This document shows, one piece after another, positions 8,751 to 20,510 of a DNA stretch of 64,000 bases (the first letter of the stretch is position 1; each line of letters starts with the position of its first letter). The stretch comes from Myxococcales bacterium (GTDB lineage: Bacteria; Myxococcota_A; UBA9160; UBA4427). Below the pieces are notes generated by a model that was given only the letters and a program-made list of their open reading frames with translations, searched no databases and was not told the DNA's origin. The stretch lies in assembly GCA_022563535.1 (NCBI GenBank), contig JADFNE010000014.1, forward strand, positions 1 through 64,000, written 5' to 3'. A program made the translations under genes and the position numbers.

Positions 8751-9281
8751 CTAGGACTTTGGCAGGCCCTGGAACTCGGCCAGGTGACTCTTCCAGCCAG
8801 CCTTGACCGCGTTGGTCTCGTTTCGAGACAATCCCAGTTCTTCGGCGATTTTGGACACTTCGGCGCTCTCGGTGGTGGAGATGGTCCCGTCTGCCGCCGA
8901 AACCGCGTACAGGCACTCGACCAGACCCAGTCGCTGCTCTCGGTTGGAGATCTTGCGAAATTCTCTCGTGATCAGGTAGTTCGACGTGCCGCCTTCTTCG
9001 CGCGCCTGGCCCAGGCTGATCTCGACGACCAACTTCGCTTCGCTCTCTGCAAGATCTCCCAGGGAGGTTGCCGCCCGCACCATGGCGTCGATTTCGCTGT
9101 CCTCGATGCGCAGGTCCGCGTGGGCGATCCGGGCCAACACGTAGGCGAACGCCGCGAGGTAGTGGGCGCGCTCGGGGGCCATGCCATCGAGTGCTGCGAT
9201 GATTCGATCGAGGGCTTCGGGCTCGGTGTTCGAGCGATCGTCCTGAATGTCGATACCCAAGAAGCGCTTCAACAGGGACAC
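8751..9281 (-). CDS. TerB-like helical protein
   Basis: The 176-aa protein has the all-helical TerB/DjlA-type pattern: AFAYVLARIAHADLRIEDSE, IDAMVRAA and a second acidic repeat LVECLYAVSAADGTISTTES, with two loops rich in Asp and Glu that may bind metal. The family occurs in tellurite-resistance clusters and as stand-alone proteins of unknown role. No other ter gene is nearby. The start is the GTG at 9281, which has GGGAGA about 6 bases upstream; earlier in-frame ATGs add a tail with no family features. It is 116 bp upstream of the SLC13 gene on the same strand and may be co-transcribed. Confidence 0.7.
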   Translation of the reverse strand: MSLLKRFLGIDIQDDRSNTEPEALDRIIAALDGMAPERAHYLAAFAYVLARIAHADLRIEDSEIDAMVRAATSLGDLAESEAKLVVEISLGQAREEGGTSNYLITREFRKISNREQRLGLVECLYAVSAADGTISTTESAEVSKIAEELGLSRNETNAVKAGWKSHLAEFQGLPKS

Positions 9282-9371
9282 GCTGATTCTCCCATGACGG
9301 TGCGGGTGCATTACGCTGGACATCGCAGTTTCGGACACCGGCCCAACCCCGGCAAGGGGCGTGCATGGATC

Positions 9372-9406
9372 GGCACTGGGTATAGGCACTGGGTATAGGC
9401 ACTGGG
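9372..9406. repeat. 13-bp tandem repeat, 2.7 copies
   Basis: GGCACTGGGTATA occurs at 9372-9384 and 9385-9397, and the first nine bases recur at 9398-9406. It lies in the divergent gap between the TerB-like gene and the GT39-like gene, 15 bp before the start of the latter. Confidence 0.9.
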
Positions 9407-11728: not shown

Positions 11729-12715
11729 CTAACGCAGGAACAAATCCTGAGCCAAGCTCCTGGCGCCGTATCCGAAACGCCAGTAGCCCCGGTTCAAGAC
11801 CTCGTGTGCGATTGCGGGCAGGCGCGAGAAAAAGCCCGAGGCCATCTGGTCGCGCAGTTTGGCGTGGTGGATCTTGCCTTCGGTCAGGTCGACGACGCTC
11901 TGCCGGGGGGAGAAGCCCTTGTCGGCAGCGATGCGGAACCGTTCGCGCGCAGTCGAGAAGAAGGTGACGTTGTGTCGGAACGCGCCAATCGCAAGCTGCT
12001 CCCGTGCCTTCCCCAACTGTTCGCGCAAGTTGAAGCGCTGGAGTCCGAACTGATTGGTTCCGTGCAAGCGGTATTCGATCAGGTTCTCCTCGATGATGCG
12101 AATGTCGGCGACTCCCGCGATGCTAAAAGTGAGCCACGCATCGTGACAATCGTGCAGATCGGGGAAGGGCAGGTAGACGTTGCGATACCGGGAGCGAAAG
12201 GCGAGGGTGGTACCCGCTGCGACGACGTGCTTGACGAAGACTTCGGCGGCGCGTCCCTTGCGTACCAGTGCACGCTCCCGCGGATGGAACCAGAGCGAGT
12301 CCCAGAGATTGTATCCGAGGGGTTCGAGCGCTTCGTCTACCACGCGACCGTTGCTGAAGACGGCTCCGGCGTCGGGATGGGTCTCCAACTCGTCGACCAT
12401 TTTTTCGATTTTGTCGGTGTGCCAGACGTCATCGTGATCGGCCAGGAAGATGAATTCTCCCCGACACAGCGAGACGGCCTTTTCGAAGTTGGGGGTCGTG
12501 GTGAGGTTTTCGGAGTTGCATTCGAGTTTTACCTCGAAGGGGGCGCCGTCTCTGAAGCGTTCGAGTGCGGCGATGGTGCCGTCGGTTGACCCGTCGTCGC
12601 ACACCACCAGTTCATCTGGCAGCTGGCTCTGCTCGGCGATGCTGGCGAGCTGCTCGGCGAGCCAGGGCCCCGGGTTGTAGGTCGTCATGGCGATAGAGAT
12701 GCGGGGCGCAGTCAT
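11729..12715 (-). CDS. Family 2 glycosyltransferase
   Basis: The 328-aa GT-A protein starts ISIAMTTYNPGPWLAEQL, followed by LPDELVVCDDGSTDGT and the metal-binding region FIFLADHDDVWH. These are the nucleotide-sugar binding and DxD elements of GT2. The C-terminal half is the rhamnosyl-/galactosyl-transferase-like accessory region. It has no membrane segments, so it acts in the cytoplasm on a lipid-linked or nascent glycan. It is transcribed away from an LbH acyltransferase, and the 235-bp gap between them holds a 10-bp repeat array. Confidence 0.85.
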   Translation of the reverse strand: MTAPRISIAMTTYNPGPWLAEQLASIAEQSQLPDELVVCDDGSTDGTIAALERFRDGAPFEVKLECNSENLTTTPNFEKAVSLCRGEFIFLADHDDVWHTDKIEKMVDELETHPDAGAVFSNGRVVDEALEPLGYNLWDSLWFHPRERALVRKGRAAEVFVKHVVAAGTTLAFRSRYRNVYLPFPDLHDCHDAWLTFSIAGVADIRIIEENLIEYRLHGTNQFGLQRFNLREQLGKAREQLAIGAFRHNVTFFSTARERFRIAADKGFSPRQSVVDLTEGKIHHAKLRDQMASGFFSRLPAIAHEVLNRGYWRFGYGARSLAQDLFLR

Positions 12716-13448: not shown

Positions 13449-14339
13449 CTACGTTTGCTTCGAAAAGAGACTCGGCAACAGCGCGGCGCCGATCGTTCCC
13501 GCGCGGTCTCCCAACTCACTGACCAGCAACGGGACCTCTGCCAACGGCTTGGCAAACGAGACCTCGAGCAACGTCTTGCGACAGCTCGGTTCAATCAAAT
13601 CAAAGGCCGGGGAAATTCCGCCGGTAAAGACGATCGCGTCGACGTCGAGAACGTTCTGCATCGAACGAATTCCCATGGCGAGCACCTCTCCCATCATCTC
13701 GAAGACGGCCAGGCCCGCGGCCTCTCCCCCCCGCGCGTTGTCGGCGATGTCACGGATTTCCTCGGCCTCGCCACCGAGCTCCGCATACTTTCGCTTCAAC
13801 CCCGGGGTTCCGACATAGGTCTCGAGGCATCCTGTTGCCCCACATACGCAGGGCCAGTTCTCATCGCGATTGACCACGACGTGTCCCAACTCTCCGGCGA
13901 ATCCGTTGGCACCTCGCCGAGGCACTCCGTCGATCACCACGCCGCCGCCGATGCCCGTGCCCAGGGTGAGGATCAAGAAGCTTGGATGCTGCTGACCGTG
14001 TCCGAATTGCAGTTCGGCAAGGGCCGCCGCGGTACCGTCGTTTTCGACGCTGACTGGACAGTCGAGCAGTCGGCTGAGTTCGCTCTGCATCGGAACGCCT
14101 TCGAAGCCCGGCAGGTTGGGGAGGCGCCAACAGCGACCGCTCGAATCGACTTCGCCGGGGATCGCGAAACCCACAGAGTCGGGTTCGGGGGCGAGTTCGC
14201 GGATGGCGTCTGCGATGTCGGCTAGCAGTGCCAGCGGTTCTTTGGTTTTGTCGGTGGGAATCGAGTGCGCTTCGAGCACTTGCGCGCCGTCCACAATCGC
14301 GATCTTGATACGCGTCCCACCGAAATCAACACCAATCAT
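13449..14339 (-). CDS. ROK-family sugar kinase
   Basis: The 296-aa protein starts IGVDFGGTRIKIAIVDG (phosphate-1 motif). It contains VENDGTAAALAE, LTLGTGIGGGVV, the GELGH catalytic region and the ROK zinc motif C-x-C-G-x2-G-C-L-E (CVCGATGCLE). It probably phosphorylates glucose or a similar hexose; no DNA-binding domain is present, so it is not a ROK repressor. I used the internal ATG at 14339 because the upstream 13 residues do not fit the family. It begins 54 bp after the stop of the MerA/Lpd-like oxidoreductase and may be the last gene of the arsenic-type operon. Confidence 0.83.
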   Translation of the reverse strand: MIGVDFGGTRIKIAIVDGAQVLEAHSIPTDKTKEPLALLADIADAIRELAPEPDSVGFAIPGEVDSSGRCWRLPNLPGFEGVPMQSELSRLLDCPVSVENDGTAAALAELQFGHGQQHPSFLILTLGTGIGGGVVIDGVPRRGANGFAGELGHVVVNRDENWPCVCGATGCLETYVGTPGLKRKYAELGGEAEEIRDIADNARGGEAAGLAVFEMMGEVLAMGIRSMQNVLDVDAIVFTGGISPAFDLIEPSCRKTLLEVSFAKPLAEVPLLVSELGDRAGTIGAALLPSLFSKQT

Positions 14340-14393
14340 CGTCGCGTCAGTATGCCGAAAGCTGCGGGGTTGGATCAAGCCGTGGGTGTGTTC

Positions 14394-15944
14394 TCAACGC
14401 CTCAGGGCGAGAAATGATCGGAAGATCCTGGCTACGGTCGGAGTCAGCTTGGTCTTGTTATATGCGTCGCCGAGCTGGCGGATGGCTTCGGCTTGGGTCG
14501 GGTAGGGGTGAATCACCGAGGCGAGTCGCGACAAGCCGACGCCGCCCGCCATCGCCACACTGATTTCGCTGATCATTTCGCCGGCGTGCTTTGCCACGAT
14601 CGTGGCACCCAGGATCTTGTCCTTTCCCTTCTCGGTGTGAATCTTGACGAAGCCTTCCTCCTCTCCTTCCGTGATCGCGCGATCGACCAGAGCGAACGGA
14701 CGTAGATAGGTATCGAGTTGGATGCCCTTCGCCATGGCATCGCGTTCGTACAATCCGACGTGTGCAATCTCCGGCCGGGTGTAGGTGCACCACGGAATCG
14801 TGAGGGCAGAGAGCTTCTTGCGCCCGAAGAACAGGGCATTTTGAATCACCGCGCGTGACGCGAAATCGGCCGCGTGAGTGAACTGGGTCGACATGCAAAC
14901 GTCGCCGGAGGCAAATATGTTCTTGTTGTGTGTTCGCAAGCAATCGTCGACCAATACACCCCGGCGATCATGCCGGACGCCGGCCTGTTCTAGCCCGATG
15001 CCTTCGACGTTGGGGATGCGACCTGCACCGACGAGAATGGCGTCGACCTCGATTGGGTCTTCCTTCCCTTGTCGCGACAGCCGAAGACGTTTGATCGGCC
15101 CGGCGCTTTCGATCTCCTCGACCTGGGTGTCGAGGGCCACGTCGACTCCGTCCCGTTCGAGGGCTGTGCGCAAGATTGCCGCGGCGTCGGGATCCTCCCG
15201 GGAGAGGAACTGGCTCCCCCGTGCGATCAAGGTGACTCGACTCCCGAGGCACGCAAATGCCTGTGCGAGTTCGCAACCGATGGGGCCACCGCCAATGATC
15301 GCGAGGCGCTCTGGTAGTTCAGTGAGCGAGAAGATCGTCTCATTGGTGTAATAGCCAGCTTCTGCCAGCCCCTTGATCGGCGGAATGAAGGGACGGGCAC
15401 CGGTGGCGATCACCGCTTTTTTGAAATCCAGCACTGCACCCGCGACTTCGATCTGGTTGCGACCTATGAACTGACCGTCGCCAATGAAAACATCGACTCC
15501 GAGATCGTCGCGGAATCGGCGCGCGGAATCGTTCGCGCTAATGCGGCTGCGAATCTCGCGTAGTCGCTCCATCACGCCGGAGAAATCAACTTCGACGCTG
15601 TCGTCTGGGACGTTGACGCCAACCGCCGCGGCCGAGCGCAGGTCTCCAATCGCGTGGGCCGAACGCAGTAGCGACTTGGAGGGAATACAGCCGGAGTTGA
15701 GGCAATCACCGCCCAACAGTGCGCGTTCGATCAAGGCAACCTTGGCTCCGATCCCGGCGGCTCCGGCGGCCGCGACCAGACCGGCAGTGCCGCCGCCGAT
15801 CACGACCAGATTGTATCGACCCGTTGGCTCCGGATTGATCCAGTCGGCGGGGTGCACGTTGGCGACCAAAGCTCGGTTGTAAATGTCGTGGGGCGGAACC
15901 TCGATCGCAGTCACGGCTCGACTCGTCGTCATGGACTCGCTCAC
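14394..15944 (-). CDS. MerA/Lpd-like FAD disulfide oxidoreductase
   Basis: The 516-aa flavoprotein has the FAD site VVIGGGTAGLVAAAGAAGIG and the redox pair Cys81/Cys86 in GGDCLNSGCIPSKSLL, then the NAD(P)H site AIIGGGPIGCELAQAFACLG and FASGDVC. The C-terminal dimerisation domain ends in HPYPTQAEA, which carries the His-Pro of the disulfide-reductase active site. The N-terminal 40 residues are an extra tail without the HMA domain of true mercuric reductase. The C-terminal cysteine pair of MerA is absent, so mercury reduction is unlikely. It follows the TVP38 gene by 7 bp in the ArsM/ArsS run; TVP38-oxidoreductase neighbours are a known arrangement. The substrate is unknown. Confidence 0.82.
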   Translation of the reverse strand: MSESMTTSRAVTAIEVPPHDIYNRALVANVHPADWINPEPTGRYNLVVIGGGTAGLVAAAGAAGIGAKVALIERALLGGDCLNSGCIPSKSLLRSAHAIGDLRSAAAVGVNVPDDSVEVDFSGVMERLREIRSRISANDSARRFRDDLGVDVFIGDGQFIGRNQIEVAGAVLDFKKAVIATGARPFIPPIKGLAEAGYYTNETIFSLTELPERLAIIGGGPIGCELAQAFACLGSRVTLIARGSQFLSREDPDAAAILRTALERDGVDVALDTQVEEIESAGPIKRLRLSRQGKEDPIEVDAILVGAGRIPNVEGIGLEQAGVRHDRRGVLVDDCLRTHNKNIFASGDVCMSTQFTHAADFASRAVIQNALFFGRKKLSALTIPWCTYTRPEIAHVGLYERDAMAKGIQLDTYLRPFALVDRAITEGEEEGFVKIHTEKGKDKILGATIVAKHAGEMISEISVAMAGGVGLSRLASVIHPYPTQAEAIRQLGDAYNKTKLTPTVARIFRSFLALRR

Positions 15945-15951
15945 CTCAAAA

Positions 15952-16713
15952 TTAGTCGGTGGGTTGCTTCGCGTTGTCTTCCACGGCCATCGTTCCGGCG
16001 TTGGGTGTGCTTTTGGCCAACGCCGTTTTTGCGATCCGGGTGACGATCGTGGTCACGGCGAGGGTTGCCACCAACCCCAACCCCAATACCAAGTAGTGAG
16101 CTGCGCCTTTGTCTACATCCCCGGCCGCGAAGGCCGCAGCATCTCCCGCGACCCTTCCGTAGTAGACGTAGAGAAGTGTTCCGGGAAGCATCCCGATCGA
16201 AGCGATCAGGTAGTCCCGAAAACTCACGCGCGTCACACCCAGGGCGTAGTTCATGAAGTTGAAGGGAAAGGCCGGAGAGAGTCGCAGCAAGAAGACGATC
16301 TTGAGACCCTGGTCGCCCACGGCGGAATCGAGGGCCGAGAACCGGGGATGGTCGCGCAGGCGTTCTTCGATCAATCCGCGCACGAGGTATCGGGCCACGA
16401 GAAATGCGAGGGACGATCCGATGACGGCCGCAGTGAAAACGTAGATCGTGCCCTGGACCAGATTGAACAACGCGCCCCCGGTCAGGGTCAGCAACGCCCC
16501 GGGCAAGAATGCCAGCACGCCGGCGATATAGGCCGCGATGAACACGATGGGGCCGAGGCTCCCGTGGTCTTCCACCCAACCTTGGAGTTGCGGAACGTAG
16601 CCGCCCAACTGCCGTGTGAGCGCAAAGAAGACGCCGAGTGCCACGACGATCCCAGCGATTTTGACGAGTCTTGCTCGGCCCGCGCTCGGGGGAGTGGTCT
16701 CAGGGCGAGACAT
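15952..16713 (-). CDS. TVP38/TMEM64-family membrane protein
   Basis: The 253-aa protein has about five hydrophobic segments and the VTT/SNARE-associated domain: FLPGALLTLTGGALFNLVQG, SSLAFLVARYLVRG, RLSPAFPFNFMNYALGVTRVSFRDYLIAS and GMLPGTLLYVYYG. DedA/TVP38 proteins are inner-membrane proteins linked to lipid scrambling and ion homeostasis. Its ATG shares one base with the stop of the ArsS-like gene (TGATG), and its own stop is 7 bp before the oxidoreductase, so it is firmly inside the operon. A transport or membrane-protection role for the arsenic products is an inference. Confidence 0.83.
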   Translation of the reverse strand: MSRPETTPPSAGRARLVKIAGIVVALGVFFALTRQLGGYVPQLQGWVEDHGSLGPIVFIAAYIAGVLAFLPGALLTLTGGALFNLVQGTIYVFTAAVIGSSLAFLVARYLVRGLIEERLRDHPRFSALDSAVGDQGLKIVFLLRLSPAFPFNFMNYALGVTRVSFRDYLIASIGMLPGTLLYVYYGRVAGDAAAFAAGDVDKGAAHYLVLGLGLVATLAVTTIVTRIAKTALAKSTPNAGTMAVEDNAKQPTD

Positions 16714-17708
16714 CAGGCGTTTTCCTGCAGTGTCCCGCCGCAGCTCGAACCCGCGCCCGCAGTGCAGCCAAAACAGTGCTCTGCTGTCGCAATGGGTCTG
16801 CCATAGAGAAGTCCGAAGTCGTCCAGGTCCCAGATGGTCTTCTGGGGGCCGGGCATCGCCAGTTCGAGCTGTTGGTTGAAGTCGCAGTCGTAGAGGGTGC
16901 CGTCGTACCCAATCGAGACGAGGTCTCTGCACATCAAGCTCGAAACCGTCTTCGGATTGAAGTGGTTGACCAGCAATGAGAGATACTCGGAGGCGCGGCC
17001 TGAGCGCTCCAGATCGTGGGCGAATCGCTTGATCGGCATGTTGGTAATCGTGAGCAGACGGTTGAAGCGGATGTCGAATCGCGTGCCGAGTTCTTCGCGA
17101 AACTCGAGTTCCAACTCGGCTTGGGGTGGCGGGAGTGATGGGCCGCCGGGGTTGTAGACGAGGTCGAGGATCAAGCCGGTGTCGGGGTCGCCGTAGCCGA
17201 GTCGACCGAGCAGGCGGAGCCCCTCGATGCTCTTGTCGAAGACCCCCCGCCCACGCTGGGCCTCCACGTTTTCCGCGGTGTAACAGGGCAGCGAAGCCAC
17301 GACCTCGACCTGGTGCTCGGCCAAAAACTTCGCGGTGTTCTCCTGCCCCGGTTCGAACAAGATCGTGAGGTTGCAGCGATCGATTACTCGCCGACCGAGC
17401 CTGCGGGCACCGATGACCAATTCATAAAAGTGTTCGCTCATCTCCGGCGCGCCACCCGTGAGATCGAGTGTCCGGATCTCGGGATTATTCGCGAGCAATT
17501 CGAGGACGCGCTCGATCGTCGCCTTGTCCATCGCCTCGCTGCGATTGGGACCCGATTCGACGTGGCAGTGGTGGCAGGCGAGATTGCAGCGCTTGGTGAC
17601 GTTGAGCTGAAGGGTTTCGCAGCGATTGCGCCGCAAGCCCCGGTCCCAATGAAGTGCGGTATTGACCGCATCATCGAATCGGGCTGGGGTACCGAGAACA
17701 CTCAACAA
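16713..17708 (-). CDS. arsS: ArsS-like radical SAM enzyme (arsenosugar biosynthesis)
   Basis: The 331-aa protein carries the radical-SAM cluster motif Cys41-x3-Cys45-x2-Cys48 (CNLACHHC), the LDLTGGAPEM motif, and a cysteine-rich C-terminus ending CFGCTAGAGSSCGG that is diagnostic of the ArsS group. ArsS is thought to add a 5'-deoxyadenosyl group from SAM to methylated arsenite to build arsenosugars. Some family members are selenoproteins; I see only cysteine codons here. The start is a TTG at 17708 with GGGAG 6 bases upstream, overlapping the end of the methyltransferase gene, so the two are translationally coupled. Confidence 0.85.
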   Translation of the reverse strand: MLSVLGTPARFDDAVNTALHWDRGLRRNRCETLQLNVTKRCNLACHHCHVESGPNRSEAMDKATIERVLELLANNPEIRTLDLTGGAPEMSEHFYELVIGARRLGRRVIDRCNLTILFEPGQENTAKFLAEHQVEVVASLPCYTAENVEAQRGRGVFDKSIEGLRLLGRLGYGDPDTGLILDLVYNPGGPSLPPPQAELELEFREELGTRFDIRFNRLLTITNMPIKRFAHDLERSGRASEYLSLLVNHFNPKTVSSLMCRDLVSIGYDGTLYDCDFNQQLELAMPGPQKTIWDLDDFGLLYGRPIATAEHCFGCTAGAGSSCGGTLQENA

Positions 17709-18862
17709 CAGGAACTCCCTTTGTCACTGGACTCGCGGGTTTCGCGGTAATCGTGGCCCTTGGTTTCGCGCGGGTCCCGGGTATGGCTGCGGCAGCAGTC
17801 GAACTCAGCGCGATCCTCTTCGGCGACGGCGACCCGAGGCGGAACCGCGATGATCTGGTCGCTGTACGGCTCCGCGTTGAAGATTTTGTAGGTCTTGGCA
17901 CAGACGGCCGTCCGTTCGCCGCGCACCAGGGTATGTCCGTCGTCGTCGACGACCTGCTTCCAGGGACCGCGGTAGATCACGGCTTCGTTTGCTTCGAGAC
18001 GGGCCCCTTCTTTTCCCTTGGTGCCCGTGATCGTAACCGAGCGGAATTCGATTCCATCCACGACCGCAAAGGGCTTGTCTTCCCATTTGTCGATCTCGAT
18101 TCCGTAGAAACCTGTGCGTTCGAGCTGGGCGAGGAGGTCCGATTCGCAAAACGCCCCCGAAATGCAGCCGCTCCAGAGTTTGGGATCGGCCTTCAGTTCG
18201 TCGCTGACCACTTCGTCGCTGACGATGTCCGAGATGGCGATGCGCCCGCCCACGTCGAGCACCCGGTAGATCTCCTCGATCAACTGATGCTTGTCTTCTT
18301 CGCGCACGAGGTTGAGAACGCAGTTCGAGACCACGATGTCGATCGATCCGTCTGGAATCATCGGGGCGTCGCGGCGCATCCGATCCTTGGCGTCTTCCAG
18401 GGCATCGAGGGAGTCGACGCCTGAAATCGGATTCTCTTGCATCCAGCTGTCGAGTTCATCCATGTCGAGCTTCAGATCTTGAATTCGCCCACGCAAGAAT
18501 TCGACATTGCGGTAACCGTTCAATTCCGAAACCTTGGGAGCCGCAGAGCGCGCCAGGTTCAGCATGTCCGGGTTCATGTCCACGCCGATGACACTGCCCT
18601 CGGCCCCGACAATCTGTGAAGCGATGAAGCAGATCTTGCCACCGCCACTGCCCAGGTCGAGTACGCGGTCTCCAGCGTTTACGTATCGCGAGGGATCGCC
18701 GCAGCCGTAGTCTCGCTCGAGTACTTCTTGTGGAATGATCTCGAGGTATTGGGGGTCGTAGTCGATCGGGCAACAGAGTGCAGGCTCACGTGTGTTGGCC
18801 GCACGGCTGTAGCGATCGGAGGTAGCACGCTCACTGCTCGGATTCTGAACTGACGTTGACAT
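17702..18862 (-). CDS. arsM: ArsM-like arsenite S-adenosylmethionine methyltransferase
   Basis: The 386-aa protein has motif I VLDLGSGGGKICFIASQ (GSGGG at 71-75), VIGVDMNPDMLNLAR, and CVLNLVREEDKHQLIEEIYRVLDVGGRI. Cysteines typical of ArsM-type enzymes are present: Cys30-Cys31 (ALCCPIDYDP), C54 (DYGCGDP), C in SNCVLN and SGCISGAFC, plus C-terminal pairs FDCC and SSCC. It should methylate arsenite stepwise from SAM, supplying substrate to ArsS, which it overlaps. It is the first gene of the five-gene run and is preceded by AAGGAAAG and by three 14-bp repeats at 18901-18942. Longer upstream frames lack features and were not used. Confidence 0.85.
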   Translation of the reverse strand: MSTSVQNPSSERATSDRYSRAANTREPALCCPIDYDPQYLEIIPQEVLERDYGCGDPSRYVNAGDRVLDLGSGGGKICFIASQIVGAEGSVIGVDMNPDMLNLARSAAPKVSELNGYRNVEFLRGRIQDLKLDMDELDSWMQENPISGVDSLDALEDAKDRMRRDAPMIPDGSIDIVVSNCVLNLVREEDKHQLIEEIYRVLDVGGRIAISDIVSDEVVSDELKADPKLWSGCISGAFCESDLLAQLERTGFYGIEIDKWEDKPFAVVDGIEFRSVTITGTKGKEGARLEANEAVIYRGPWKQVVDDDGHTLVRGERTAVCAKTYKIFNAEPYSDQIIAVPPRVAVAEEDRAEFDCCRSHTRDPRETKGHDYRETRESSDKGSSCC

Positions 18863-18900
18863 GTCGCCTGCTTTCCTTTTTAACGATCCGTTTTCGGTAT

Positions 18901-18942
18901 ACAAGATCCGAAACACAACATCTGATATACAACACCTGAAAT
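18901..18942. promoter_or_regulatory. Three tandem 14-bp repeats upstream of arsM
   Basis: Three consecutive units read ACAAGATCCGAAAC, ACAACATCTGATAT and ACAACACCTGAAAT (consensus ACAA-A-CTGA-A-). They lie 39-80 bp before the arsM start in the gap shared with the divergent SDR gene. Position and repetition suggest operator sites, but no regulator gene of the ArsR or other type is seen in the window. Confidence 0.55.
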
Positions 18943-19102
18943 TGAACGGGCGATGATAGAACAAGCCGACATCCGGGCCCGCAAGTGGCGATGAACTCGA
19001 ATTGGACGAGTTGTTTTGGGCAGAGCTTGCGGGAAGAATCCCCACAGGAATTGAGCGCGGCAGCGCGTCAGTCTCTCGCCCCCAACCCATAGGGATCTCA
19101 CA

Positions 19103-20008
19103 ATGAGCGACATCAGCTATCAAAATCGAGTGGCGATCATCACCGGAGCCGGCGGGGGTCTGGGGAAGACCTACGCCCTGGAATTCGCCCGTCGAGGCGC
19201 CATGGTGGTGGTCAACGACCTCGGCGGCGCCGCCGACGGCACCGGCGCCGGTTCGACACCCGCCGATGACGTGGTCGCGGAAATTGCCGAAGCCGGGGGC
19301 AAGGCTGTTGCCAATCACGATTCAGTGGCGACTCCCGAAGGCGGCGAGTCGATCGTGCAAGCCGCACTGGACAATTTTGGCAAGGTCGACATTGTGATCA
19401 ACAACGCGGGGATCTTGCGGGACAAGACTTTTGCCAAGCTGACGCCCCCTGATCTCGAAATTGTTCTCGACGTGCACTTGAAGGGCGCATTCTTCGTTTC
19501 CCAGCCCGCCTTTCGCAACATGAAGGAAAATCAGTACGGCCGATTCGTCTTTACGGCGTCGGGAGCCGGCGTGTTCGGGAACTTCGGCCAATCGAACTAT
19601 GGTGCTGCAAAGATGGGTCTGGTCGGCCTTTCGAATGTTCTGGCGGTCGAGGGAGCCAAGTACAACATCAAGTCGAACGTGATCGCGCCGATCGCCCGAA
19701 CTCGCCTGACCGAGAATCTGCTCGGACCCTTGGCGGAGCATCTCGATCCAGGCTGCGTAACGCCGCTGGTCACCTACCTCGCCTCGGATGCCTGCGAGCA
19801 CACCCACGAAATCTACGACGTGGGCGGAGGGCGATTCGCGCGCATCTTCATCGGCTTGTGTGAGGGCAAGACCTTTGGCAAGGGTGCCAAGCCCAGCGCA
19901 GAAGAGATCCGCGACAGCATTGGCGAGATCAACGACACCGATGGGTTCACGATTCCCACCAGCATTGCCGGTGAGATGGAAGCGGTCGTGAAGTCGTTCA
20001 AGGACTAG
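19103..20008 (+). CDS. SDR, HSD17B4-like 3-hydroxyacyl-CoA dehydrogenase
   Basis: The 301-aa protein has the NAD-binding TGAGGGLGKTYALEFARRG, the insertion VVNDLGGAADGTG typical of the dehydrogenase domain of peroxisomal multifunctional enzyme type 2, NNAGI, a catalytic Ser region ASGAGVFGNFGQ and Tyr-x3-Lys in NYGAAKMG. It probably oxidises 3-hydroxyacyl-CoA. It lacks the fused hydratase and SCP2 domains. A tandem MaoC protein is encoded far away at 47.8-48.9 kb. It is divergent from arsM; the adjacency need not be functional. Confidence 0.85.
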   Translation: MSDISYQNRVAIITGAGGGLGKTYALEFARRGAMVVVNDLGGAADGTGAGSTPADDVVAEIAEAGGKAVANHDSVATPEGGESIVQAALDNFGKVDIVINNAGILRDKTFAKLTPPDLEIVLDVHLKGAFFVSQPAFRNMKENQYGRFVFTASGAGVFGNFGQSNYGAAKMGLVGLSNVLAVEGAKYNIKSNVIAPIARTRLTENLLGPLAEHLDPGCVTPLVTYLASDACEHTHEIYDVGGGRFARIFIGLCEGKTFGKGAKPSAEEIRDSIGEINDTDGFTIPTSIAGEMEAVVKSFKD

Positions 20009-20030: not shown

Positions 20031-20510
20031 TCAGAGCTGCTCGATGTGCGAATCGAGTATTGGCCACTCGATGGCGTCCTGGGATGCAAAAGCCTTCAAC
20101 AGGAGTTGGCGGTCGGGGTTGTCGTCCTTTCCGCAAAACTCCTTGATGGTCCCCTGGAGCTTTTTGGCCGCTGGCTCGGGAGGGTTGTTTTCTTTGAGGC
20201 TTCCGTCTTCGTGATCGATCTCCAGGGCGTCGAGCCATTCGACGAGGATCTCCTTCCTGCATTCCAGAAAGTAGATTGCGAGCATTTCTTCGGCTACGGG
20301 ATTGTTGTTGACCCGGGACAGGGCCTTGCGCACCAGTGCAGCGCGGCTCGCGAAGGGTTGCTTGATCACGAACTTTGGACGGCTCTTGAACGCCGCCGCC
20401 GCGGCGTAGACGGCCTGGGTGAAGCTGCCCGGCGATTTTTCTGCAATTTCGCGAAAAAAGGCCTCGGCCTGCTCGGTATCCATCGCCGCAAAAATTTGAA
20501 CTGCCCGCAT
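20031..20510 (-). CDS. Hypothetical helical protein (159 aa)
   Basis: I do not recognise this protein. It is predicted to be mostly helical and soluble: MDTEQAEAFFREIAEK, FTQAVYAAAAAFKSRPKF, RKALSRVNNNPVAEEMLAIYFLE and KLQGTIKEF. There is no signal peptide or membrane segment. The NNPVAEEMLAIYFLECRKEILVEWLD-type region, with paired acidic and hydrophobic residues, resembles a tetratricopeptide-like or HEAT-like scaffold, but no clear repeat period is visible. It stands alone, convergent with the SDR gene, 22 bp away. Confidence 0.65.
   Translation of the reverse strand: MRAVQIFAAMDTEQAEAFFREIAEKSPGSFTQAVYAAAAAFKSRPKFVIKQPFASRAALVRKALSRVNNNPVAEEMLAIYFLECRKEILVEWLDALEIDHEDGSLKENNPPEPAAKKLQGTIKEFCGKDDNPDRQLLLKAFASQDAIEWPILDSHIEQL

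Follow-up and report, generated by a model that had tools for sequence, protein, structure and literature searches.

A TVP38 membrane protein and a MerA-like flavoenzyme as probable partners of the radical SAM enzyme ArsS

Within an arsM-arsS operon of a Myxococcales bacterium, we found genes for a TVP38-family membrane protein and a MerA/Lpd-like flavoenzyme, a pair that recurs beside arsS in relatives of several phyla. We conclude that this pair is probably a functional partner of ArsS in redox or membrane handling; that an arsenical is its direct substrate is possible, if short of probable. The operon lies in the window, meaning the whole 64,000 nt stretch analysed (contig JADFNE010000014.1), with the following features:

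17702..18862, minus strand: arsM-like SAM methyltransferase, arsinothricin-type relative, 386 aa, cysteines 30/31, 54, 181 and 233
16713..17708 (start TTG 17708 or 17705), minus strand: arsS, radical SAM (CNLACHHC) plus DUF3641, TIGR04167
15952..16713 (ATG), minus strand: TVP38/TMEM64 membrane protein (VTT/DedA superfamily), 253 aa, PF09335
14394..15944, minus strand: MerA/Lpd-like NAD(P)H flavoenzyme (oxidoreductase), C81 and C86 as redox pair, Y481 at the position of the catalytic base, lacking a C-terminal CC
13449..14339, minus strand: sugar kinase of the ROK family, in the same orientation, its linkage confined to the genus; probably not a pathway gene
18863..19102: intergenic region upstream of arsM, the expected site of the operon promoter by position
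19103..20008, plus strand: short-chain dehydrogenase (SDR), transcribed divergently and outside the operon, marks the flank of the conserved locus
20031..20510, minus strand: F88, conserved 159-aa protein, flank marker with or without arsS at the locus
8754..9389, minus strand: TerB-like protein

The initial annotation had described a run of five genes, ArsM-ArsS-TVP38-oxidoreductase-ROK, and both the run, all on the minus strand, and its junctions were confirmed. The 5´ end of arsS (TTG 17708) overlaps the 3´ end of arsM (17702), and with an alternative start at TTG 17705, preceded by GGGAG, the arsS start and the arsM stop would overlap as TTGA. The arsS stop and the TVP38 start have one A in common (TGATG), a longer TVP38 ORF from 16932 being a false N-terminal extension. 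The oxidoreductase gene (GTG 15944) follows after 7 bp and the ROK gene (ATG 14339) after another 54 bp, a gap that an alternative ROK start at TTG 14378 would shrink to 15 bp. The five-gene order is far beyond chance: all four genomes of the window's genus keep it, and their proteins are 61-79% identical to those of the window. No consensus sigma-70 site was found in 18863..19102, and comparison by eye revealed no regulatory motif upstream of arsM common to relatives. In many relatives the TerB-like gene directly follows the oxidoreductase gene; in the window, ROK and glycosyltransferase genes intervene.

The first two products matched their proposed identities. ArsS clearly belongs to TIGR04167 (431 bits; cut-off 300), with the radical SAM CxxxCxxC motif as CNLACHHC and a DUF3641 domain (PF12345, 180 bits). 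From its sequence, ArsM is an arsenite-methyltransferase relative, with a SAM methyltransferase domain (PF13847) and all four conserved cysteines (C30, C54, C181 and C233), whose positions match those of BgArsM (PMC8552651). Its nearest family is the arsinothricin-type ArsM NF040538 (353 bits against a cut-off of 500), and it scores 126 bits against the arsenosugar ArsM NF038099, below the cut-off of 400. The arsinothricin cluster arsQML (PMC8552651) likewise joins an ArsM homologue to a radical SAM enzyme that forms an As-C bond, whereas the window encodes ArsS (TIGR04167) rather than ArsL and no ArsQ permease. Searching the window's own genome one family at a time, we detected TIGR04282/TIGR04283 glycosyltransferases on contigs C22 (212 bits; cut-off 182) and C91 (146 bits; cut-off 134), as well as an MTA phosphorylase, a candidate enzyme for adenine removal. 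The combination that marks an arsenosugar cassette, ArsM and ArsS in an operon with both glycosyltransferase families in the same genome, was therefore found here, although here, unlike in NCBI-annotated cassettes, both glycosyltransferases are on other contigs.

The arsenosugar pathway of Synechocystis resembles this arrangement in that an ArsM-type methyltransferase is followed by a TIGR04167 radical SAM enzyme, which we take to be slr0304. The Synechocystis ArsM is slr0303 (PMC4284471), slr0305 encodes a TVP38 homologue (PMC3836016), and ArsS was characterised by Cheng et al. 2021, as cited in PMC12159101. In contrast to Synechocystis, the window has an arsinothricin-like ArsM, a MerA-like flavoenzyme after TVP38, and glycosyltransferases outside the operon.

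The initial annotation had named TVP38, the flavoenzyme and the ROK kinase as possible ArsS partners, and a neighbourhood survey of ArsS loci upheld the first two and not the third. Among the 49 ArsS loci flanked on both sides by 5.5 kb or more, 29 had both TVP38 and the oxidoreductase, compared with 21 that had any ArsM, and coordinates placed the pair with ArsS in 27 of the 45 ArsS-bearing relatives. The linkage spans Myxococcota, Bdellovibrionota, Pseudomonadota, Acidobacteriota and Cyanobacteriota, the last represented by one plasmid, in orders that vary by lineage (ArsS-TVP-OXR, TVP-OXR-ArsS, ArsS-...-OXR-TVP and a fused TVP-OXR). Cultured bacteria with the fused form next to arsS include Rhodanobacter fulvus Jip2 and Rhodanobacter sp. 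Root480. The pair also occurs on plasmids within full arsenosugar cassettes containing annotated arsenosugar glycosyltransferases: a Cupriavidus cassette reads PiT-ArsM-ArsS-OXR-TVP-GT-GT-MTAP and an Acinetobacter cassette arsS-[TVP38/oxidoreductase fusion]-DUF547-GT-GT-MT-PiT, while a Pseudanabaena plasmid has TVP38-'mercuric reductase'-arsM-TVP38-arsS. On Acinetobacter portensis pJNE5-X3_NDM-1, which carries an NCBI-annotated arsenosugar cassette (TIGR04167, TIGR04282, TIGR04283), ArsS is accompanied by TVP38 and an FAD oxidoreductase, there fused as a 'bifunctional TVP38/TMEM64 family protein/FAD-dependent oxidoreductase', whereas in the window they are separate genes downstream of ArsS. 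Arsenosugar finishing and handling after ArsM and ArsS are largely unassigned in the literature searched, and the presence of the pair beside ArsS in five phyla makes it a strong candidate for such a step. The survey thereby names a specific protein pair, linked to or fused beside ArsS more often than ArsM is, that is testable in a cultured carrier.

The association is not exclusive. Neither TVP38 nor the oxidoreductase was near ArsS in 23 of 56 surveyed loci, and the pair was not near ArsS on the ArsS plasmids of B. glumae, Thiodictyon and Hymenobacter. In about 14 relatives with ArsS the pair is encoded elsewhere, and 11 relatives, some more than 90% complete, had the pair without ArsS, which led us to reject, for this pair, exclusive dedication to arsenosugars. 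The pair thus also exists independently of ArsS, and it may act on something other than arsenic.

The flavoenzyme exceeds the PRK06370 cut-off (785 bits versus 620; PRK06370.1-3), and its CxxxxC pair (C81, C86) is invariant in 71 of 71 homologues. Where disulphide reductases have a catalytic His before Pro-Thr, it has Tyr481 (in HPYPT), a tyrosine kept in 70 of 71 homologues; this replacement excludes glutathione reductase and lipoamide dehydrogenase as identities, and every disulphide-reductase family scores below its own cut-off. MerA shares the fold family, the CxxxxC pair and the tyrosine at the His position, but the window enzyme scores 390 bits against TIGR02053, below the cut-off of 454, and C-terminal vicinal cysteines (CC) were found in none of 76 homologues. 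The enzyme is accordingly not a mercuric reductase, in agreement with the initial description of a flavoenzyme lacking mercury-binding cysteines.

TVP38 matches PF09335 (102.3 bits; gathering score 33.9) and carries the GxxxVxxxxY motif as GVTRVSFRDY, both features of the DedA/TVP38 family (Slr0305, E. coli YdjX/YdjZ). Its AF2 model is all-helical (mean pLDDT 85.8), and a fold search of this model against the PDB gave no match at E≤0.001. Unlike the family members described so far in the literature searched, TVP38 of the window type is paired or fused with a flavoenzyme. No paper was found that connects TVP38 to arsenosugars, or that treats it together with mercuric reductase and arsenic, and a search on TVP38, oxidoreductase and operon returned, judging by titles and the openings of abstracts, none on the pair.

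We propose that the operon product would be an organoarsenical of the arsenosugar type. ArsM would methylate As(III). ArsS homologues transfer the 5´-deoxyadenosyl group of SAM to dimethylated trivalent arsenic, and the window ArsS, judging from its family, would do the same. TVP38 and the flavoenzyme would form one two-part unit, a membrane-associated NAD(P)H reductase for arsenicals or another non-disulphide substrate, with electrons predicted to pass from NAD(P)H through FAD to the C81-C86 dithiol and most likely on to a non-disulphide electrophile. Pentavalent methylated or adenosylated arsenic is the first candidate; its reduction would keep the substrate of ArsS in the trivalent state or serve to condition the product. 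TVP38 would anchor the flavoenzyme and may move its substrate. The recurrent linkage, the fusions, the invariant CxxxxC and the Tyr that replaces His are observed; we infer arsenic as the substrate, the anchoring and the direction. Later steps may fall to the TIGR04283 and TIGR04282 glycosyltransferases and the MTA-phosphorylase-like enzyme encoded elsewhere in the genome. In relatives whose genomes yielded no ArsM and have ArsS directly before TVP38 and the flavoenzyme, the three genes might instead scavenge arsenic methylated by others, TVP38 admitting it, the flavoenzyme reducing it to the trivalent state at the membrane and ArsS adenosylating it. This is a long shot, though if true, arsenosugars would be made jointly by members of a community, and TVP38-MerA-like pairs would represent a new class of uptake-reductases for organoarsenicals.

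Several other explanations could account for the pair. It might be a general-purpose module for membrane redox reactions or for metal(loid)/oxidant stress, without specificity for arsenic, and its attraction to ArsS loci would then reflect the redox or thiol stress that comes with making organoarsenicals; we consider this view rather unlikely but of real weight. The same general need would explain retention without ArsS, and genomes lacking ArsS do have the pair in the corresponding syntenic position (F88-SDR-TVP-OXR-TerB); moreover, the oxidoreductase is in 54 of 61 relatives, exceeding the 45 with ArsS, and the reductase tree implies 11 or more changes in the ArsS linkage state. Left unexplained are the fused and separate pairs that distant clades repeatedly have inside complete arsenosugar cassettes and not near other stress genes. 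The initial annotation named regeneration of a thiol reductant as one possible step. ArsM chemistry does require thiols, and a flavoenzyme whose CxxxxC is intact and whose superfamily is that of the class I disulphide oxidoreductases might regenerate a glutathione-, bacillithiol- or lipoyl-like compound for ArsM and ArsS. The reading is weakened by the near-universal tyrosine at the base His position, and with the family scores under their cut-offs we judge it unlikely. Similarly improbable is that TVP38 acts as a flippase or scramblase for arsenosugar phospholipids, with the flavoenzyme catalysing a step that involves a lipid or is linked to quinones. In its favour, the closest relative of Slr0305 among eukaryotes, yeast Tvp38, has been described as a putative lipid scramblase (PMC13174344), and other organisms are known to make arsenosugar phospholipids. 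Against it, none of the recurrent neighbours is a lipid-assembly gene, and the pair also occurs without ArsS.

Compared with a partnership of the TVP38-flavoenzyme pair with ArsS, a true five-gene pathway in which ROK would supply a phosphorylated sugar intermediate for the arsenosugar is very improbable. The kinase is a clear family member (PF00480, 208 bits; cut-off 23) with the CxCGxxGCxE motif, scoring 172 bits against the glucokinase TIGR00744, below the cut-off of 260, and its place directly downstream, in the same orientation, in each of the genus's four genomes would fit such a role. Outside the genus, however, no ROK gene was near ArsS in the surveyed loci except for a weak match in one (L094), and on this survey we rejected ROK as a pathway gene, contrary to the initial annotation. 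Since these four genomes conserve an unrelated glycosyltransferase gene farther out just as well, the ROK linkage reflects ordinary genus synteny, and the kinase is probably a local bystander. The survey thus separates the pair and the MTA-phosphorylase candidate from ROK, which is not worth pursuing for the pathway. In a genome of another genus (G005), the ROK orthologue (62% identity) is located away from ArsS, next to genes for phosphofructokinase and a trehalose-6-phosphate-synthase-like protein.

We confirmed from the sequence the initial annotation's claim of five co-oriented genes, which, with the neighbours discussed below, are:

13449-18862, minus strand: ArsM, ArsS, TVP38, oxidoreductase and ROK genes, in that order
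14394-15944, minus strand: the oxidoreductase, a flavoenzyme
11729-12715: glycosyltransferase gene
20031-20510, minus strand: conserved 159-aa protein with no match in Pfam or NCBIfam, which stably accompanies the locus whether or not arsS is present

The ArsM gene ends in TGTTGTTGA, which contains two in-frame TTG starts for ArsS with GGGAG upstream. ArsS and TVP38 have the A of a TGATG junction in common (the mechanical ORF start of TVP38 is 73 codons too early), and gaps of 7 bp and 54 bp precede the oxidoreductase gene and the ROK ATG, respectively. In family scans, ArsS scored above the TIGR04167 cut-off, a VTT domain was found in TVP38, the oxidoreductase was placed with the FAD oxidoreductases of PRK06370 type, and the last product was identified as a ROK protein. 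ArsS was characterised by Cheng et al., 2021 (cited in PMC12159101). For ArsM, the nearest model was that of arsinothricin-type ArsM (353 bits, under the cut-off of 500); its cysteines lie at 30, 54, 181 and 233, the same positions as reported for BgArsM (PMC8552651).

The ArsS neighbourhood survey suggested in the initial annotation drew on 84,980 species genomes scanned with ArsS, which yielded 80 loci, and on a search of 60 relatives, where ArsS was above the cut-off in 45 of 61 genomes, counting the window's own. Six-frame ORFs at all loci, which span Myxococcota, Bdellovibrionota, Pseudomonadota and Acidobacteriota, were compared against the five window proteins. Where at least 4 kb was available on both sides (56 loci), TVP38 and the oxidoreductase were both present at 30, TVP38 alone at 3 and neither at 23. 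With 5.5 kb on each side, the survey bore out the proposed link for the TVP38-oxidoreductase pair (29/49 loci); any ArsM was found at 21/49 and an arsenosugar-type glycosyltransferase at 18/49. By coordinates, the oxidoreductase lies within a few kb of ArsS on the same contig in 27 of the 45 ArsS-bearing relatives; we estimate that chance would give fewer than one case, assuming that a 5 Mb genome holds roughly one gene of this kind. ArsM was not found (window ArsM, E 1e-25; general ArsM model, E 1e-30) in several relatives with ArsS above the cut-off (G004, G011, G013, G015, G017, G019, G021-G023, G025, G026, G040, G041, G046, G051, G057), drafts in which some absences may be gaps. A PiT/PHO4-type phosphate transporter, possibly for arsenate or phosphate, recurs beside ArsS (loci L042, L049, L054-L056, L063, L076, L078, L081, L082, L086, L094, L095, L103, L104, L164, L166), and a DUF3047 protein lies upstream in several lineages (L037, L044, L050, L093, L097, L107, L110).

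The survey did not uphold the ROK kinase as an ArsS-linked pathway gene: ROK was near ArsS at only 4 of the 56 loci, all in the window's genus, where it directly follows the oxidoreductase in 4/4 genomes. The glycosyltransferase gene downstream is conserved in the same four genomes, and the ROK linkage is therefore no more than genus-level synteny. The linkage is missing in G005, which belongs to a different genus within the family: its orthologue (62%) adjoins phosphofructokinase-like and trehalose-6-phosphate-synthase-like genes, as read from translations. TerB comes next after the oxidoreductase in many other relatives; the window has ROK and sugar-transferase genes separating the two.

The association extends to plasmids. 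An annotated plasmid of the cyanobacterium Pseudanabaena galeata carries TVP38, a gene named 'mercuric reductase' (product sharing 56% identity with the window oxidoreductase), arsM, TVP38 and arsS; one of Acinetobacter portensis carries arsS, a fused TVP38/FAD oxidoreductase, DUF547, TIGR04283, TIGR04282, a methyltransferase and PiT; and an unannotated Cupriavidus plasmid carries PiT-ArsM-ArsS-oxidoreductase-TVP38-TIGR04283-TIGR04282-phosphorylase, its ArsM 47% identical to the window's. The pair is absent from three further plasmid-borne ArsS loci. DUF547 genes recur in the plasmid cassettes, and the A. portensis plasmid, pJNE5-X3_NDM-1 (L166), is an NDM-1-named plasmid with an apparently complete arsenosugar cassette.

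The pair is nevertheless independent of ArsS. The oxidoreductase is present in 54/61 relatives, eleven of which (G009, G016, G027, G034, G038, G039, G045, G047, G050, G052, G059) have the pair without ArsS above the cut-off. Away from ArsS, TVP38 adjoins the oxidoreductase wherever the gene is complete with enough upstream sequence; no TVP38 was seen at L128, L140 and L149, which are cut or short on one side or divergent. A second pair occurs elsewhere in the genome from which the window comes (contig 128, 4059-5900), its oxidoreductase 57% identical and its TVP38 cut by the contig end. The slot flanked by an SDR gene on one side and a TerB-like gene on the other variously holds ArsS and the pair, ArsS alone (L046, L060, L062, L074) or the pair alone (e.g. 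L121, L125, L138). In a tree of 71 oxidoreductases, linkage to ArsS changes at least 11 times, 8 of them forced by well supported branches; because sampling started from ArsS, these counts indicate repeated association and dissociation, not rate or direction. Nearly all fused forms (Bdellovibrionota, Pseudomonadota) fall in a separate clade. The fusion is already noticed as a protein in NCBI names, which give no pathway step.

A CxxxxC pair is invariant across the 71 aligned homologues, and 70/71 have Tyr (HPYPT) at the catalytic His position of lipoamide dehydrogenase and glutathione reductase, as does MerA. C224, C350 and C386 of the window enzyme are conserved in 78-96% of the main clade. 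Vicinal cysteines near the C-terminus occur in 0/76 homologues, in agreement with the initial description of a flavoenzyme lacking mercury-binding cysteines. Defining features of both mercuric and disulphide reductases are therefore missing, and we rejected both assignments, the former for want of these cysteines and the latter for the Tyr.

Given linkage, fusion and conserved redox residues, together with TIGR04283 and TIGR04282 glycosyltransferases and a 5'-methylthioadenosine (MTA) phosphorylase elsewhere in the window's genome, we infer that the pair would be a membrane-associated NAD(P)H reductase of a non-disulphide electrophile, with a pentavalent organoarsenical as the leading candidate substrate. 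We do not call it arsenosugar-specific, mainly because genomes keep the pair without ArsS; a general stress module is an alternative, as is thiol regeneration. Lipid movement is a further alternative. In earlier work, one Synechocystis TVP38 homologue, slr0305, has been treated in the context of membrane trafficking (PMC3836016), and slr0303 is the ArsM of that organism (PMC4284471). Our literature search, with most subscription papers outside its reach, found no paper linking TVP38 to arsenosugars, or to mercuric reductase and arsenic. In several lineages (L035, L059, L067, L068, L073, L081, L101; L162, L164, L166), ArsS or the arsenosugar glycosyltransferases have an MTA-phosphorylase-like gene next to them; the encoded enzyme is a candidate for the step that strips adenine from the adenosyl-arsenical, a compound resembling methylthioadenosine.
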